Shown: piece after piece, positions 24,113 through 31,478 of the stretch | How positions within the stretch are numbered: position 1 is the stretch's first letter | Layout: the number at the start of each line of letters is the position of its first letter | Origin: Terriglobia bacterium | GTDB lineage: Bacteria > Acidobacteriota > Terriglobia > Bryobacterales > Bryobacteraceae | Assembly: GCA_020073145.1 (NCBI GenBank) | Contig: JAIQFS010000028.1 | Coordinates: 1-64,000 of the forward strand | DNA: 64,000 nt | Direction of reading: 5' to 3' | Program-made: the position numbers and the translations under genes | Notes under the pieces: model-generated | What the model was told of the DNA's origin: nothing | What the model saw: the letters and a program-made list of their open reading frames with translations, nothing else | Database searches by the model: none

Positions 24113-25039
24113 ATCACACCCTACAGGAATACGGTTCTGATTTACAATCCCCGTGCGGGCAAACTAGGTCGCAAAGGACATGGGCCGGTGGAGCGCGCGG
24201 TGGAGATTCTGAAGCGTGACGGACATCACGTGACGGTGGCGCCGACCACCGGCCCGCGCATGGCCGGGGCGATGGCGCGGGAGTATGCCGAGCGGGGCGC
24301 AGACCTGGTGCTGGCGGTGGGCGGGGACGGCACGATCAACGAAGTGGCGGAAGGACTGGTGGGCTCGCCGGTGGCGTTGGGGATTCTGCCGGGCGGCACG
24401 GCCAACGTGCTGGCGACGGAGATGAAGCTGGGGTCGCGTCTGGAGCGGGTGGCGGCGCGGCTGGGCGCGTGCCGGCCTTGCCGGATCGCGGTGGGGCATG
24501 TCACGTGCGAGGGCGGCACGGTGTCGCGGCACTTCTTGCTGATGGCGGGGATCGGGCTGGATGCGCATGTCGTGTACCGGGTGAGCGGCCCGCTGAAAGC
24601 GGCCACGGGCAAGTTCGCTTACTGGGTAGCGGGTTGGAGCCTGCTGGGACGCCGGCTGGCGGAATTTCAGGTGGCCGTGAACGGGTTGAGCCGGACCTGT
24701 TCGTTTGCGCTGGCGAGCAAGGTCCGTAATTATGGCGGCGATTTCGAGATCGCGAAGGACGTCACGCTGTTCGACGACCGCTTCGAGGTGGTGCTGTTCG
24801 AAGGGCCGTCGACGCTGCCGTATGTAAAGTATTTCAGCGGGCTGATGCTCAACCGGCTGCGAGGCATGAAGGGCGTGACGGTGGAGCGCGCGCAGTGCCT
24901 GCGGCTGTCGTCGCCCGAGGACCAGCGCGTGTACCTGCAGATTGACGGGGAGTTTGCGGGGCACCTACCGGCCGAAATCCGGATTGTGCCGGACGCGCTG
25001 ACCCTGCTGGTGCCGCCGGAGTACGGGCGGCAGGGCTAG
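24113..25039 (+). CDS. Diacylglycerol kinase-family lipid kinase (YegS/BmrU-like), non-ATG start
   Basis: The conserved N-terminus (NTVLIYNPRAGKLGRKG) lies upstream of the first in-frame ATG/GTG/TTG (GTG at 24188). From the upstream in-frame TAA to 24188 the only start-like codon with good spacing to GGAGAG is ATC at 24113, giving 308 residues, the usual family length. The nucleotide-binding loop AVGGDGTINEVAEGL and PLGIL-like LGILPGGTANVLA segment are present. It phosphorylates a lipid such as diacylglycerol or a sphingoid base at the inner membrane. It probably forms an operon with the AraC and VOC genes. Confidence 0.85.
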   Translation: MTPYRNTVLIYNPRAGKLGRKGHGPVERAVEILKRDGHHVTVAPTTGPRMAGAMAREYAERGADLVLAVGGDGTINEVAEGLVGSPVALGILPGGTANVLATEMKLGSRLERVAARLGACRPCRIAVGHVTCEGGTVSRHFLLMAGIGLDAHVVYRVSGPLKAATGKFAYWVAGWSLLGRRLAEFQVAVNGLSRTCSFALASKVRNYGGDFEIAKDVTLFDDRFEVVLFEGPSTLPYVKYFSGLMLNRLRGMKGVTVERAQCLRLSSPEDQRVYLQIDGEFAGHLPAEIRIVPDALTLLVPPEYGRQG

Positions 25040-25053
25040 TACACTAAAAGCGG

Positions 25054-25788
25054 ATGTCGACCTATCGTGAGCGCGCCCCACACCCAGGCCTGCAGCGCTG
25101 GGTGGAATGCTGTTGGAGCGCCGATTACGCGGCGGGAGTGTCCGGTCACGCGGTCTTGCCCGACGGCTGCCTGGATATCCTGTATTCGCGGCAAGAGGGC
25201 GTGCGCGTGGTGGGCGCCATGACGGAGGAGCAACGGTTTGATTTCGCGGCGGGCGCGCGGCTGGCCGGGGTGCGGTTCCGGCCGGGGATGGCGGGGCGAT
25301 TCCTCAAGGCGTCGCCGGCCGAATTCACAGATGTCATCGTGCCGCTGGAGGAGGTATGGGGGCGGGCCGGGCGCGAGTTGGCGGGCCGGTTGGAAGAGGC
25401 TCCATCTCCGGAGGAATGGCTCGGCGTGGTGACGGAGCAGTTGCCGGAGCCGGTCGCGCTCAACCCGGTGCAGCGGGCCATCGAGGCTCTGACTGAGGCG
25501 CACGGCAACCTGGATCTGGAGTGGCTGGCCGGCCAAGCGAATCTCAGCCCGCGGCAGTTCCGGCGGCGCTGCCTGGAGGAGAGCGGGCTTACGCCGAAGC
25601 ATCTCGGCCGGGTGCTGCGGTTCCGGCGCGCGTGCGCGCTGGCGGCGAGCGGCGCTCCGGACTGGGCGGCGGTGGCGGCTGAGACCGGCTATTTCGATCA
25701 GGCCCACCTGATCCGGGATTTCCGCGGATTTACGGGGCGGACGCCGATGTCCGTTTTGTCCAATACCCAAGCCGCCGTTGCCGGGTAA
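25054..25788 (+). CDS. AraC-family transcriptional regulator
   Basis: The N-terminal domain resembles the DUF6597 group (HPGLQRWVECCWSADY, VLPDGCLDILY, RLAGVRFRPGMAG). The C-terminal HTH_18 has two helix-turn-helix units (LDLEWLAGQANLSPRQFRRR; AAVAAETGYFDQAHLIRDFR, FTGRTPMSV). It is 244 residues and starts 14 bases after the lipid kinase stop. It may respond to a small molecule and act on the adjacent glyoxalase-fold gene; that is inference from position. Confidence 0.88.
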   Translation: MSTYRERAPHPGLQRWVECCWSADYAAGVSGHAVLPDGCLDILYSRQEGVRVVGAMTEEQRFDFAAGARLAGVRFRPGMAGRFLKASPAEFTDVIVPLEEVWGRAGRELAGRLEEAPSPEEWLGVVTEQLPEPVALNPVQRAIEALTEAHGNLDLEWLAGQANLSPRQFRRRCLEESGLTPKHLGRVLRFRRACALAASGAPDWAAVAAETGYFDQAHLIRDFRGFTGRTPMSVLSNTQAAVAG

Positions 25789-25797
25789 TCTGAACTC

Positions 25798-26169
25798 ATG
25801 AGGCTGACACCTGTGCTGATTGTGGAAGAGATTGAGAAGTCGCTCCCGTTCTGGGTGGAGCGCATGGGATTCGCGAAGACGGTGGATGTGCCGGACGGCG
25901 ACCGGCTGAGTTTCGCAATCCTGGTGCGCGAAGGGGCCGAGGTGATGCTGCAGACGGTGGCGAGCGTCCGGAAGGACGAGCCGAAGTTCCTGCCCAAGCC
26001 GGGCAGCACGTCTGTTCTGTTTATCGAGGTGGATGATTTCGAGGCGACCCGGAAGCGGCTGGAGGGGTATCCCATCGCGCTGGCGGAGCGGACGACGTTC
26101 TACGGGATGAAGGAGATCGGGGTGTTCGATGCCGACGGCAACGTGGTGATCTTCGCGGCGCGGGTGTAA
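25798..26169 (+). CDS. VOC/glyoxalase-fold protein
   Basis: The 123-residue protein has the vicinal oxygen chelate fold pattern: MRLTPVLIVEEIEKSLPFWV, RMGFAKTVDVPDGD, then FIEVDDFEATRKRLEG and YGMKEIGVFDADGNVVIFA. These are the two beta-alpha-beta-beta-beta modules of glyoxalase/bleomycin-resistance/dioxygenase proteins. Substrate unknown. It follows the AraC gene by nine bases. Confidence 0.85.
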   Translation: MRLTPVLIVEEIEKSLPFWVERMGFAKTVDVPDGDRLSFAILVREGAEVMLQTVASVRKDEPKFLPKPGSTSVLFIEVDDFEATRKRLEGYPIALAERTTFYGMKEIGVFDADGNVVIFAARV

Positions 26170-26242
26170 GCGGGAGCGCCCGAGCGCCAGTCCTCGTGCC
26201 GGGGAGGGGCATCCGAATCCGATCACCGCTCGTGGCGGGCCC

Positions 26243-27853
26243 CTACACGCCCCAGCAGTAGTCTTCGACGGCTTTTTCGATGGAGCTGTCGGTTTCGGTG
26301 AGACGCATCAGTTCGAGGCGGATGGCGTCGACCAGGGCTTTCCAACTGGCTTCGATGACGTTGTCGGAGACGCCGACGGTGGACCAGCTGCGGCGGTGGT
26401 CGGACCACTCGATGAGCACGCGGACCTGGGCGGCGGTGCCTTTGCGGGAATCGAGCACGCGGACTTTGTAATCGGTGAGGCGGACGTCGCCGATCTGCGG
26501 GTAGAGCTTGGAGAGACAGGTGCGCAAGCAGAGGTGCAGGGCATTGAAAGGGCCGTGGCCTTCCGCGGTGGCGGAATGGACGCCATCCTGCGCGCGCAGG
26601 GTTACCGTGGCGGTGGTGTGGGATGCCTCAGGGCCGCCGGCGCGGGTGGTGACTTCGTAGCTGTCCACGTCGAAGAAGTGCAGGCCGGGGCGGAGGGCGT
26701 CGCGCACCAGCAGCTCGAAGGTGCCTTCGGCGGCTTCGAGCTCGTAGCCCTCGTATTCCATCTGCTTGATGCGCTCGAGCAGGTCGCGGCGCGCGTCTTC
26801 GTCGAGACGGTCCGCGAGGCCGTGCTGTTTGAGCTTGTACATGATGTTGGCGCGGCCGGAGAGATCGCTGACCAGGACGCGCTGGCGGTTGCCGACCACT
26901 TCCGGCGAAACATGCTCGTAGGTGGCGGAATCCTTGAGCACGGCGCTGACGTGGACGCCGCCCTTGTGGGCGAAGGCGCTTTTGCCGACGAAGGGCTGGT
27001 CGCTGCGCAGCGGCAGGTTGGCTAGTTCGGCGATGAACTTGCAGACGGAGGACAGGCTGGCGAGTTTATCCGGGCCGACGGTGGTGTGGCCGGCCTTCAG
27101 CTCGAGGTTGGCGATGATCGAGGCGAGATTGGCGTTGCCGCAGCGTTCGCCATAGCCATTCATGCAGCCCTGGACGTGGGTGGCTCCGGCTTCGACAGCG
27201 GCGAGGGTGTTGGCGACGGCCAGATCGGAATCGTTGTGGGTGTGGATGCCGATGATGCCGTCGAAGCGCTTGCGCACTTCCGCGACTACTTCCTCGATGC
27301 GGCTGGTGAGGGTGCCGCCGTTGGTGTCGCACAGGCAGAGCACGCCAGCGCCGCCGTGGTGCGCGGCTTCGAGGGTCTTCAGCGCGAACTCGGGATTGGC
27401 GGCGTAGCCATCGAAGAAGTGCTCGGCGTCGTAGACCACTTCCTTGCCGTGGTCCTTGAGAAACTTCACGGTTTCGGAGATCAATTTGAGATTCTCTTCG
27501 AGCGTGATGCCGAGGGCGCGCTTGACGTGGAGGTCCCAGGTCTTGCCGAAGATGCAGACGACGGGCGTGCCGGCCTCGACCAGGGCGAGGACGTTGCGGT
27601 CCTCATGCACCGGGTTCTTGGCGAAGCGGGTGGCTCCAAAAGCCGTGAGGCGGGTGTGCTTCAACTGCAATTCGCGGGCGCGGCTGAAGAACTCCTTGTC
27701 CTTGGGGTTGGAGCCGGGCCAGCCGCCTTCGACGTAGTCGATGCCGAGCTCGTCCAGTTTCTGCGTAATGATGAGCTTGTCATCCACGGAGAAAGAGACG
27801 GCCTCGCCCTGCGTGCCGTCCCGGAGAGTGGTATCGAACGTGAAGATCTTCAT
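26243..27853 (-). CDS. cimA: (R)-citramalate synthase
   Basis: This enzyme condenses pyruvate and acetyl-CoA to citramalate, the threonine-independent entry to isoleucine. The 536-residue protein begins KIFTFDTTLRDGTQGEAVSF (metal and substrate site), has the GIHTHNDSDLAVANTLAAVE and VQGCMNGYGERCGNANL motifs, and a C-terminal LeuA dimerisation/allosteric domain. The EGGWPGSNPKD motif marks the TIGR00977-type citramalate synthases rather than LeuA. It is last in the ilvB-ilvN-ilvC-cimA operon. Confidence 0.93.
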   Translation of the reverse strand: MKIFTFDTTLRDGTQGEAVSFSVDDKLIITQKLDELGIDYVEGGWPGSNPKDKEFFSRARELQLKHTRLTAFGATRFAKNPVHEDRNVLALVEAGTPVVCIFGKTWDLHVKRALGITLEENLKLISETVKFLKDHGKEVVYDAEHFFDGYAANPEFALKTLEAAHHGGAGVLCLCDTNGGTLTSRIEEVVAEVRKRFDGIIGIHTHNDSDLAVANTLAAVEAGATHVQGCMNGYGERCGNANLASIIANLELKAGHTTVGPDKLASLSSVCKFIAELANLPLRSDQPFVGKSAFAHKGGVHVSAVLKDSATYEHVSPEVVGNRQRVLVSDLSGRANIMYKLKQHGLADRLDEDARRDLLERIKQMEYEGYELEAAEGTFELLVRDALRPGLHFFDVDSYEVTTRAGGPEASHTTATVTLRAQDGVHSATAEGHGPFNALHLCLRTCLSKLYPQIGDVRLTDYKVRVLDSRKGTAAQVRVLIEWSDHRRSWSTVGVSDNVIEASWKALVDAIRLELMRLTETDSSIEKAVEDYCWGV

Positions 27854-27910: not shown

Positions 27911-28951
27911 TTACTTCTTGGCTGCCAGTACGGTGTCTTGCGGGACGCCCACTTCCTTTTTCTTTTTGAGGAAGGTCATCATTTCGCGCAGCTCGCGGCC
28001 GACCTGCTCGATTTTGAGGTTGTGGCCTTTCTCGCGCATGGCCAGGAAATTCTTGCGGCCGGTTTTGTTTTCCTCAATCCACTGGCGGGCGAATTCGCCG
28101 GACTGGATTTCCGAAAGGATCTTCTTCATTTCGGCGCGGGTCTGGTCGTTGATGATGCGCGGGCCGCGGGTGTAGTCGCCGTACTCGGCGGTGTCGGAGA
28201 CGGAGTAGCGCATGTAGCTGAGGCCGCCTTCGTAGATGAGGTCGACGATCAGTTTGACTTCGTGGAGGCACTCGAAATACGCGATTTCGGGGGCATAGCC
28301 CGCCTCGACCAGGGTGTCGAAGCCAGCACGGATCAACTCGCTGACGCCGCCGCACAGCACCGACTGCTCGCCGAACAGGTCGCTTTCGGTTTCTTCGCGG
28401 AAATTGGTCTCGATGACGCCGGCCTTGAGGCAGCCGAGCGCCAGAGCGTAGGCCAGCGCGTTCTCGAGCGCTCTTCCGGAAGCATTTTGATGGACGGCGA
28501 CCAGCGCGGGGACGCCCACGCCTTCGACGTACAACTCACGGACGCGATGGCCGGGCGCCTTGGGCGCGATCATGGACACATCGACGTTGGCCGGAGGGGC
28601 GATCTGTTTGAAGTGAATATTGAAGCCGTGGGCAAACATCAAGGTCTTGCCGGCGGTCATGTGGGGGGCAATGTCCTTGCTGTAAATGTCGCCCTGCAGA
28701 TGGTCGTGCACCAGGACCATGACGACGTCGGCGGCTTTGGCGGCGTCGGCGGTGTTCATGACCTTGAGGCCGGAGGCTTCGGCTTTGGCCTGGGACTTAC
28801 TGCCGGGGTAGAGGCCGACGATCACGTCGACCCCCGAATCGCGCAGGTTGAGCGCGTGCGCGTGGCCCTGGCTTCCATATCCGATGATGGCGACGGTGCG
28901 CCCTTTCAAGTTGTCCAGATTTCCGTCTTTTTCGTAATAGCGTTTCGGCAT
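27911..28951 (-). CDS. ilvC: Ketol-acid reductoisomerase
   Basis: I start at the ATG at 28951, which has GGAG upstream; the frame is open to a TTG at 28963 that would absorb this site. The 346-residue class I enzyme has the Rossmann NADPH loop [19 protein letters not shown], the [11 protein letters not shown] segment, PKAPGH, and the metal-binding C-terminal knotted domain ([35 protein letters not shown]). Second common step of Ile and Val synthesis. Confidence 0.96.
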
Positions 28952-28989
28952 CTCTCGCTCCAATAAGGCTCCGGCCTAACGGCCAGGGC

Positions 28990-29532
28990 TCAATGAACTT
29001 TCTCCTCCACAGCGGCGCCGGCCTTGGTAGGCACGGGGGGCTGCAGGCGCAACTTTTTGTTTTCGAGGCCAATGGCCAGGGCACCCGAACGAGTCACTTC
29101 GATATCGCCGTAGCTGCGCATGACGTCGACGAACTCGTTGAGCTTTTCGGGATCACCGGTGACTTCGATGGCGAAGCCCTCGGTGGAGGAATCGACCACG
29201 CGGCCGGCGAAGATCTCGGCTTCTTTCAGGACGGCCTGGCGCGATTCCTGGGTGGTGCGGACCCGGACCAGAACCAATTCGCGAATCACGGCCGGGGAAT
29301 CGGTGAGGTCGGTGGCCTGCAGCACGTTGATGAGCTTATTCATCTGCTTGATGACCTGCTGGCGCAAGGCGGAATCGACCTCGACCGCGATGGTCATGCG
29401 GGACAGCTCGGGATCGAGCGTGCGGGCGACGGTGAGGCTTTCGATGTTGTAGCCGCGCTGGCTGAGCAGGCCGGTGACGCGCATGAGGGCGCCGGGCTTG
29501 TTTTCGAGCAATAAAGAAATGATTTGCAGCAT
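28990..29532 (-). CDS. ilvN: Acetolactate synthase small (regulatory) subunit
   Basis: The ATG at 29532 begins MLQIISLLLENKPGALMRVT, the ACT domain that binds valine, followed by SQRGYNIESLTVARTLDPEL. A C-terminal AHAS-regulatory domain follows (EIFAGRVVDSSTEGFAIEVT, LNEFVDVMRSYGDIEVTRSG). It is 180 residues. It starts one base after the ilvB stop, so translation is probably coupled to ilvB. Confidence 0.95.
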   Translation of the reverse strand: MLQIISLLLENKPGALMRVTGLLSQRGYNIESLTVARTLDPELSRMTIAVEVDSALRQQVIKQMNKLINVLQATDLTDSPAVIRELVLVRVRTTQESRQAVLKEAEIFAGRVVDSSTEGFAIEVTGDPEKLNEFVDVMRSYGDIEVTRSGALAIGLENKKLRLQPPVPTKAGAAVEEKVH

Positions 29533-29533
29533 G

Positions 29534-31247
29534 TTATTTCGCGGCCTCGACCACGGGTTGCGGCGGCCCGAGCACCATCTCGTTGATGGCGCCGCCGGCG
29601 GGCACCATGGGATAAACGCACTCGGCCGGAGAAACGCGAACATTGAGCAGGTACGGACCGGGCTCGTTGACGGCCGTTTCGAGCGCCTCGGCGAGTTGTG
29701 ACGGTTTGTCAATGGTGCGGCCTTTGAAGCCGTAGGCCCCGGCGAGCTTCTCGGCATCGGGGAAGCAATCGAGGGTGACGGAGCTGAGGCGGTTATTGTA
29801 GAACAGCTCCTGCCACTGGCGGACCATGCCGAGGTAGCCGTTATTCATGACGATGATTTTGACGGGCAGTCCATAGCTGGCGACGGTGGCGAGCTCGGGG
29901 ATGGACATCTGAAAGCCGCCGTCGCCGACGATGGCGAAGACGAGCTTGTCGGGGTGAGCGAATTGCGCGCCGATGGCGGCGGGGAGGCCGAAGCCCATGG
30001 AACCCAGGCCGCCGGAGTTGAGCCACAGCCGCGGCTCGCTAAACCGGATGAGCTGGGCGGCCCACATCTGGTGCTGGCCGACGTCGGAGGCGACGATGGC
30101 ACGGCCCTGGGAGAGGCGATCGATTTCGGCCATCAGGTGCTGCGGCTTGATCTCCGAATCGGAGGTGACGGGCTGCAGGGGATGCTCCTGTTTCCAGCGG
30201 CGGATCTGGTCCCACCAGGCGCGGCGGGCGGCTTCCAGCTTGGGCTCGACGGGGGTCGTGGTTTCGGCGAGCGTCTGATTCAGACGGATCAGGACGCGCT
30301 TCACGTCGCCGACGATGGGGACTTCGGGGGCGCGGATCTTGCCGATCTCCGCGGGATCGATATCGACGTGGATGACCTTGGCGTGGGGGGCGAAGGCGGC
30401 CAGGCGGCCGGTGACGCGGTCGTCGAAGCGGACGCCGAGGGCGATCAGCAGGTCGGCGTTCGACATGGCCATGTTGGCGGCGTAGCTGCCGTGCATGCCG
30501 GGCATGCTGATGAAGTTGGGGTGGGCCGACGACAGAGAGCCGAGGCCCATGAGGGTGGTGACGGCGGGGGCGCCGATGCGCTCGACGAACTCGCGGAGTT
30601 CCGGGGCCGCACCGGCGGCCACGATGCCGCCGATCGGACTGCTCGATGAGCTGGAGGGCGCGACGGATCTGTCCGGAGTGGCCTTCGGTGGGGACCTTGT
30701 AGCCCGGCAGATGGATGGCGGTCACGTGCTGGTAGTGGCCTTGGGCCTGGAAGACGTCTTTGGGAATGTCGACCAGCACGGGTCCCGGGCGGCCGCTGGA
30801 GGCGACATAGAAGGCCTCGTGGACGATCTGCGGCAGGTCTTCGAGGGTCTTGACCAGGTAGTTGTGTTTGGTGCAGGAGCGCGTGATGCCGAAGGTGTCG
30901 GCTTCCTGAAAGGCGTCGCTGCCGATGAGCTTGGTAGAGACCTGGCCGGTGATGGCGACGATGGGAATGGAATCCATCATGGCGTCGACCAGGCCGGTGG
31001 TGAGGTTGGTGGCGCCGGGGCCGGAGGTGGCGCAGCAAACGCCGACTTTGCCGGTGGCGCGGGCGTAGCCTTCGGCGGCGAAGGCGGCATTCTCCTCGTG
31101 GCGCACGAGCACGTGCCGGATGGGGTGGTCGTAGAGAACGTCATAGAGCGGCAGGGTGACGCCGCCCGGGTATCCGAACATGCAATCCACGCCTTCCCGG
31201 CTCAGACATTCGAGCAACATTCGCGCGCCGCTCATCAGCGTTGACAT
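29534..31247 (-). pseudogene. ilvB: Acetolactate synthase large subunit with a frameshift
   Basis: The N-terminal part (31247 to about 30640) has [18 protein letters not shown], the catalytic [17 protein letters not shown] and [12 protein letters not shown]. The C-terminal part (about 30637 to 29534), in another frame, has [15 protein letters not shown], the ThDP-binding GDGGFQMSIPELATVASYGL and NNGYLGMVRQWQELFY. At 30630-30645 the usual x-R-P-V-I-x-x-G-G-G stretch is missing about five residues and the frame shifts. The two halves otherwise cover a full enzyme (~570 aa). Either a real null allele or a sequence error; no other large subunit is in the window. Confidence 0.85.
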
Positions 31248-31283
31248 AGGTTCAAATCCTCACAAAAAACGTTGCACCAAACG

Positions 31284-31323
31284 AAAAAGGCCATCAGGCG
31301 GGCTGCTTACCCCGCTGATGGCC
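31284..31323 (-). terminator. Intrinsic terminator arm of the ilv attenuator
   Basis: Read on the minus strand, GGCCATCAG (31323-31315) pairs with CTGATGGCC (31297-31289). After one bulged C the stem extends by four G-C pairs, with an 8-9-base loop and five T's immediately after (complement of 31284-31288). It lies between the leader peptide and the ilvB start at 31247. Confidence 0.9.
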
Positions 31324-31357
31324 TGGGAACTCCGTTCCGGGCTGGCCTCAAGCGGGG
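31284..31357 (-). promoter_or_regulatory. Ile/Val transcription attenuator of the ilv operon (alternative hairpins)
   Basis: On the minus strand three segments can pair in two ways. Segment 2 (complement of 31344-31357; CCCCGCTTGAGGCC) contains the leader peptide stop codon. Segment 3 (31310-31323; GGCCATCAGCGGGG) can pair with segment 2 (7+4 pairs, antiterminator) or with segment 4 (31289-31302) as a terminator. A ribosome finishing the leader would cover segment 2 and favour termination; one stalled at the Ile/Val codons just upstream would leave it free and favour read-through. This is the geometry of classical amino acid attenuators. Confidence 0.85.
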
Positions 31358-31434
31358 CCGGCTACGATGACTACGATAATAATGCCTACAGGAATCGCGG
31401 ACAGGGGAAGCCGAGCTGGGGAACCGTGGACCAT
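31348..31434 (-). CDS. Attenuator leader peptide rich in Ile and Val
   Basis: The 28-codon ORF opens at ATG (31434) and ends TGA (31348). Residues 18-24 are a run of seven branched-chain residues, IIIVVIV, just four codons before the stop; Ile14 and Val16 and two Leu add to it. Three of the four Val codons in the run are GTA, which is scarce in the surrounding GC-rich genes. The run, its distance to the stop, and the terminator beyond identify it as a leader peptide sensing charged tRNA-Ile and tRNA-Val. A clear Shine-Dalgarno is not seen beyond AGAG. Confidence 0.87.
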   Translation of the reverse strand: MVHGSPARLPLSAIPVGIIIVVIVAGPA

Positions 31435-31449
31435 CGGGAACTCTGTACG

Positions 31450-31478
31450 AGTGTAGCTGACAAGTATTTCAAATGCAA
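31450..31478 (-). promoter_or_regulatory. Sigma-70-type promoter for the ilv leader and operon
   Basis: On the minus strand TTGCAT (31478-31473), a 17-base spacer and TACACT (31455-31450) form a good housekeeping promoter. The predicted start site falls some 7 bases on, about 10 bases before the leader peptide ATG at 31434, so the leader is very short upstream of the peptide, as expected for an attenuator. Confidence 0.75.

Follow-up and report, generated by a model that had tools for sequence, protein, structure and literature searches.

In enterobacteria, ilvB and ilvGMEDA are preceded by leader-peptide attenuators (ivbL and ilvL, respectively), in which a run of valine, isoleucine and leucine codons lies before the stop codon. 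Operons with leader-peptide attenuators, including enterobacterial ilv, have been listed (PMC1183508). The attenuators of Corynebacterium and Mycobacterium ilvBNC correspond to the ilvB-II motif (PMC10272879, PMC11857589, PMC13236596), and for both C. glutamicum and M. tuberculosis GUA has been named as a regulatory valine codon (PMC11857589, PMC13236596). The ilvB-OMG and Leptospira ilvB motifs have been reinterpreted, by comparison only, as attenuators with an upstream open reading frame (uORF), in a paper whose text does not name acidobacteria (PMC10272879). Almost none of the attenuators predicted in Acidobacteria had associated functions (PMC2965389), and leader genes are enriched at set distances in Acidobacteria, according to a paper in whose text 'ilvB' is absent (PMC4833913). 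No prior account of leader-peptide attenuation in Acidobacteria or Solibacter was found in the searchable open-access literature; for this literature, the remark in an initial interpretation of the DNA (the sequence-only reading) that leader-peptide attenuation of ilv is little described in acidobacteria holds. The ilv attenuator reported here is well supported, classical in mechanism and apparently new in this lineage.

The locus lies on the minus strand of a 64,000-nt stretch of DNA (the window) from a soil acidobacterium, where ilvB, ilvN, ilvC and cimA follow one another (Table 1). Its layout and, above all, its conservation in relatives make it very likely that a classical ribosome-mediated transcription attenuator controls these genes. 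When the minus strand was re-read, the promoter, the 28-codon leader, segments 2, 3 and 4 and the T5 run proposed by the sequence-only reading were all in place. The short leader ORF is rich in the operon's own amino acids near its stop, IIIVVIV being followed by four codons (AGPA) and then TGA. An intrinsic terminator, which covaries in the window's family (f1), stands between this ORF and the first structural gene, and a mutually exclusive antiterminator, indicated by the covariation of 2:3 and by the folding energies, covers the end of the ORF. Scans of the window with promoter and terminator consensus models called neither site at the leader, and single-sequence folding of the leader gave a non-significant MFE z-score of -0.59, with 51 of 200 shuffles equally good; neither approach is counted as evidence.

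Table 1. Features of the ilv attenuator and the genes behind it in the window
Feature	Position	Strand	Remarks
Promoter TTGCAT-17-TACACT	31450..31478	-	TTGCAT 31478-31473, TACACT 31455-31450; read directly
Leader peptide ORF	31348..31434	-	MVHGSPARLPLSAIPVGIIIVVIVAGPA; 28 codons, TGA stop
Control codons	31363..31383	-	ATT ATT ATC GTA GTC ATC GTA; codons -11 to -5 ahead of stop
Segment 2	31344..31357	-	CCCCGCTTGAGGCC; overlaps last leader codons and stop
Small hairpin within antiterminator	31326..31338	-	GGAAC-GGA-GTTCC; predicted in 2:3 fold
Segment 3	31310..31323	-	GGCCATCAGCGGGG; common to antiterminator (2:3) and terminator (3:4)
Intrinsic terminator	31284..31302	-	Segment 4 CCCGCCTGATGGCC 31302-31289, T5 31288-31284
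ilvB, acetolactate synthase large subunit	29534..31247	-	ATG at 31247; TIGR00118 split across two frames
ilvN, small subunit	28990..29530	-	NF008864 and TIGR00119 above cut-off; 5' end approximate
ilvC, ketol-acid reductoisomerase	27911..28963	-	NF004017 and TIGR00465 above cut-off
cimA, citramalate synthase (isoleucine branch)	26243..27853	-	TIGR00977 699.7 bits, cut-off 450

In the proposed mechanism, RNA polymerase would start at the TTGCAT-17-TACACT promoter and a ribosome would load at once on the 28-codon leader. A shortage of charged tRNA-Ile or tRNA-Val would stall it in codons -11 to -5 and leave segment 2 free to pair with the emerging segment 3, upon which the operon would be transcribed, presumably as far as cimA. 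With an ample supply, the ribosome at the TGA would cover segment 2, the 3:4 terminator would form and transcription would end near 31284. If the leader is not translated, termination is expected as the default, and segment 1 would hold segment 2 in many relatives. As in enterobacterial ivbL and ilvL, a short ORF with a branched-chain amino acid run and exclusive antiterminator and terminator structures precede acetolactate synthase genes. Unlike in these leaders, segment 2 extends over the final codons and the stop, the operon includes cimA, and most leader ORFs begin no further than about 13 nt from the predicted +1. By analogy, the Bryobacterales element would work like the enterobacterial leaders, which does not imply descent from them; RNA homology to them was not detectable by Rfam in the window at the gathering score or in the leader up to E 10, where irrelevant matches alone were obtained. 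The element resembles ilvB-II of Corynebacterium and Mycobacterium in having a uORF with branched-chain amino acid codons ahead of ilvB-N-C in a GC-rich host, and differs from it, as compared by description, in phylum, in the longer block of Ile, Leu and Val (ILV) codons, in the fixed GTA at codon -5 and in the presence of cimA in the operon. It also shares a branched-chain-rich uORF ahead of ilvB with the ilvB-OMG and Leptospira motifs; a match to ilvB-OMG was not reported for the window leader in the search up to E 10, the library of which may not include this motif.

In the window, the ilvB frame is broken near 30630 into ORFs at 31247-30039 and 30622-29534. Around this point (30600-30640, minus strand), an orthologue aligns over 1-206 in one frame and over 213-577 in a second one. 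The pattern resembles a loss of about 20 nt, due either to a genuine mutation or to an error of assembly. The sole other match to the window IlvB in its own genome is a 29% relative. Behind cimA, two long ORFs of 266 and 396 amino acids (24164-26226, minus strand) have no matches in Pfam and NCBIfam.

The gene ilvB was found in 60 relatives and the upstream regions were read. An ILV-rich leader ORF could be assigned in all 33 f1 ilvB upstream regions used (22 automatically and 11 by a relaxed search), and these ORFs stop just ahead of or inside the stretch that complements the terminator's 5' arm. An unsupervised scan for an ILV-rich ORF followed by a terminator was positive in 28 of the 33 regions and in none of 165 dinucleotide shuffles or 33 reverse strands. 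The promoter motif TTGCAT-(16-18)-TANNNT is present ahead of 96 of 103 family loci versus 7% of shuffles, with a spacing of exactly 17 in 83 of the 103. About a third of the leaders have an in-frame start codon at +1 or +2 and most of the remainder start no more than 13 nt from +1, as counted from predicted +1 sites by a scan that used the first in-frame start and is thus biased to short UTRs. In the window, the start is about 9 nt from the +1 predicted near 31443 and an obvious Shine-Dalgarno sequence is absent. From these distances, leaderless translation of many leader ORFs is likely. Terminators ahead of genes are common, and a short ORF with no obvious Shine-Dalgarno sequence might be incidental to a terminator that acts as a constant brake or closes another transcript; given that two families share the ILV run, the stop position, the promoter spacing and the 2:3 antiterminator, such an arrangement is most improbable.

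A covariance model, R1, was searched across 399 genomes of the class. It found one strong copy in the window's own genome (82.6 bits) and matched 96 of 101 f1 genomes, 13 of 14 genomes of a second family (f3) and 6 of 284 others, the named neighbours being Bryobacterales, Solibacteraceae, Bryobacter and Candidatus Sulfopaludibacter MAGs. The attenuator copies are mostly ahead of ilvB and in a few cases ahead of cimA, ilvA or ilvN. Two lesser matches in the window's own genome (L191 and L192) have no leader and look like chance. Among the six matches outside f1 and f3, two are real ilvB attenuators and four are without a leader. G179 (f7) and G200 (f6) carry the element, and their IlvB nests inside f1 in the IlvB tree, so that ancestral presence in these families was rejected in favour of horizontal transfer or misbinning. 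Weak matches in f11 (L187, L188 and L190) resemble ordinary terminators behind long ORFs, and L189 is likewise without an ILV leader; these were rejected as attenuators. Nearly all Bryobacterales relatives of this acidobacterium thus carry the predicted ilv leader switch. Since f1, f2 and f3 form a supported group (100/97) in the IlvB tree and the element is absent from the single genome read for each of the sister families f4 and f12, its origin most probably lies on the stem of the order. At one f12 locus (L193, in G065), a strong hairpin with T6 stands directly ahead of ilvB with no ILV leader.

In predicted folds of the window leader, 2:3 (-26.3 kcal/mol) and 3:4 (-25.1 kcal/mol) are near-equal, and when the whole leader is folded the terminator state is favoured over the antiterminator state by about 4-6 kcal/mol. 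Because the terminator wins at equilibrium, the switch must be kinetic, depending on the folding order and the ribosome position, as in known attenuators. RNAalifold on the alignment recovers 3:4 alone, since 2:3 excludes 3:4 and shifts by one base between subgroups, and a partner-swap test was therefore chosen, in which segment partners were exchanged among the 33 f1 loci (2000 swaps). Observed pairing was higher than swapped pairing for 2:3 (20.1 vs 18.4), 3:4 (30.2 vs 21.9) and 1:2 (14.7 vs 13.1), and 0 of 2000 swaps reached the observed value in each case. In f3 the test gives a signal for 3:4 alone, the observed value being reached by 39 of 2000 swaps, and is not significant for 2:3 (454 of 2000) and 1:2 (1090 of 2000). 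Striking paired changes are found in L012 (CCTGCT:AGCAGG), L024 (TTCGCCTG:CAGGCGAA) and L032 (TTCCTGCCTG:CAGGCGGGAA), and two-sided compensatory changes occur at 7 of 9 predicted pairs of the 3:4 terminator in the f1 and f3 alignment. Many relatives also have a short hairpin at the position of GGAAC-GGA-GTTCC. A 5'-side segment 1, which would form a protector hairpin (1:2) with segment 2, is clear in many relatives (GGGGTC..GGCCCC; GGAATTT:AAATTCC in L032); 1:2 has support in f1 as a set and none in f3. In the window's genus segment 1 is unconvincing, with just a weak GGCC(N8)GGCC hairpin (-5.6 kcal/mol).

The sequence-only reading had made its case depend on conservation of the Ile/Val run and the stems in relatives; both are conserved, and 2:3 and 3:4 covary in f1. 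Its view of ilv attenuation is supported by the relatives with three amendments, namely the inclusion of leucine codons, which also enter the leaders of many relatives, the weakness of segment 1 in the genus, and the kinetic nature of the switch. A ppGpp riboswitch governs ilvB in some other bacteria (PMC10272879), and this terminator might likewise answer to an RNA that binds a metabolite (riboswitch) or a tRNA (T-box), with the ORF in a secondary role. Such control is highly unlikely here: the approximately 160 nt contain just the competing stems and the ORF, it is the codons and stems that are conserved, and at Rfam gathering scores the window matches no family, aptamers and T-box cores included. 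In one f3 genus, g35 (L041, L043, L045 and L046), the leader and the 2:3 stem are retained and the U-run is eroded, which makes termination there doubtful. In L053 (f3), the leader stop is apparently lost.

The codon block of the attenuator has a sharp downstream edge. Codon -5 encodes Ile, Val or Leu in a fraction of 0.89 of 95 f1-type ilvB leaders (including a few copies from the cimA-separated clade described below and two transferred copies, L185 and L186), and codon -4 in 0.06; the fractions are 1.0 and 0 both in f3 leaders (n=17) and in cimA leaders (n=6). In 33 of 45 cases, segment 2 has its first paired base at -8 or -7. As known from work on the ribosome helicase, mRNA enters the ribosome at about +11 from the first P-site base. 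If this value applies, codon -5 in the A-site would leave exactly segment 2 free and a ribosome one codon further on would cover part of it; if a wider toeprint boundary is taken, segment 2 would be fully free for stalls up to about codon -7, not beyond. The use of GTA in the run, to which the sequence-only reading had drawn attention, is a real enrichment that reaches relatives and may, as that reading proposed, sharpen stalling: GTA accounts for 48-55% of leader Val codons versus 8% in ilvB, and ATT for 55-63% of leader Ile codons versus 20-27% in ilvB. Codon -5 is GTA in 76 of 95 f1-type and 17 of 17 f3 leaders, and ATT in 6 of 6 cimA leaders. In theory, regulatory codons are chosen for the isoacceptors that are first to lose charging (PMC1183508), a choice with which the leader codon bias is consistent; avoidance of RNA structure could contribute to the bias.

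The leader peptide itself might arrest the ribosome by sensing free Ile or Val in the tunnel instead of a shortage of charged tRNA at the codons, as its C-terminal end before the stop is conserved (GPA in f1, SPG or GPG in f3). These C-terminal codons double as segment 2, so that RNA constraint explains their conservation, and they change together with their pairing partners (to EFA, RPA or QIPA before the stop), while the remaining peptide varies freely; peptide-mediated sensing is accordingly very unlikely.

CimA serves the isoleucine branch alone, and Ile codons that follow cimA are thus a prediction of codon-level sensing. In nearly all f1 genomes with both placed, cimA belongs to the ilv operon and follows the attenuator at a distance of a few kb. 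A single clade (G012, G402, G408, G319 and G224, with G245 assigned by genus) has cimA elsewhere, with an attenuator of its own and the leaders MLTFLSIGIIIGAGITSPA, MPTLLQGEILISVAITGPA, MLLLIQGGILISLAIHGPA, MLLLIQSSLLISVAITGPA, MLLIIQGILLISVAITGPA and MNLLIIQGGILITVSIRGPA. By counted codons, these are Ile/Leu leaders (3-5 Ile, 0-1 Val), and the ilvB leaders of the clade (G012, G402, G408 and G319) are Val/Leu leaders (4-7 Val, 0-1 Ile), while ilvB leaders with cimA in the operon have on average 3.4 Ile and 4.8 Val. Of the 97 ilvB leaders for which cimA is in the operon (or not otherwise resolved), 89 have at least two Ile codons, against 0 of the 4 for which it is elsewhere. All cimA-separated genomes in the tree fall into one clade (100/100), and they therefore count as a single evolutionary event, one natural experiment; the p-values for the pattern treat these related genomes as independent. 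The connection of the Ile codons with cimA suggested earlier is borne out in this clade, where the relocated cimA is preceded by an Ile leader of its own and Ile is lost from the ilvB leader. This dependence of the leader amino acids on the downstream gene also argues against a fixed-brake terminator. In G224, the ilvB upstream region (L284) is without a recognisable leader and the cimA attenuator is retained. In genus g63 (L288 and L289), an attenuator of the same family precedes ilvA, encoding threonine deaminase, and the leaders have two Ile codons only, near the end (RRITIRFTGPA and RRIMGGISRSA before the stop). Two further copies (L174 and L175) stand ahead of small-subunit genes.

The same scan for an ILV-rich ORF and a terminator was positive at 8 of 60 ilvB or ilvN loci of other families of the phylum, against 1 on the reverse strand and 2 of 300 shuffles. 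The clearest are VIVVIVLIITVNILTGISRFG (with stop) ahead of ilvN in f42 (G595, G497 and G522), where CGGTTCGG lies opposite CCGAACCG, and, each with its stop, AIINNIAVIIIIAIISIIVRT ahead of ilvB in f24 and VGISIIVIIPPSG and FLIIGIIHTVIIPEG ahead of ilvB in f35. These leaders and the Bryobacterales element may or may not have a common ancestor. It is conceivable, though somewhat short of probable, that Acidobacteriota have phylum-wide, repeatedly retuned branched-chain amino acid attenuators, many on leaderless mRNAs; the last control codon of Bryobacterales, fixed at -5 as GTA (ATT for cimA) and lying just one ribosome reach ahead of segment 2, would then make the switch sense a single valine isoacceptor, tRNA-Val-UAC, and the cimA, ilvA and ilvN copies would be re-coded for their own end products. 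A predicted function is now assigned to an attenuator kept across an order common in soil, natural variants exist in which the leader codons track the pathway genes, and the GTA choice, the permitted place of the last control codon and the leaderless leader ORFs provide testable statements. The f42 type of attenuator ahead of ilvN (L222:1190-1400, L318 and L331) has leaders that end in LTGxxRFG before the stop. In f24 and f35 (L340, L343 and L345), Ile-rich leader ORFs and terminators are located ahead of ilvB, with a sequence unlike that of the Bryobacterales element.
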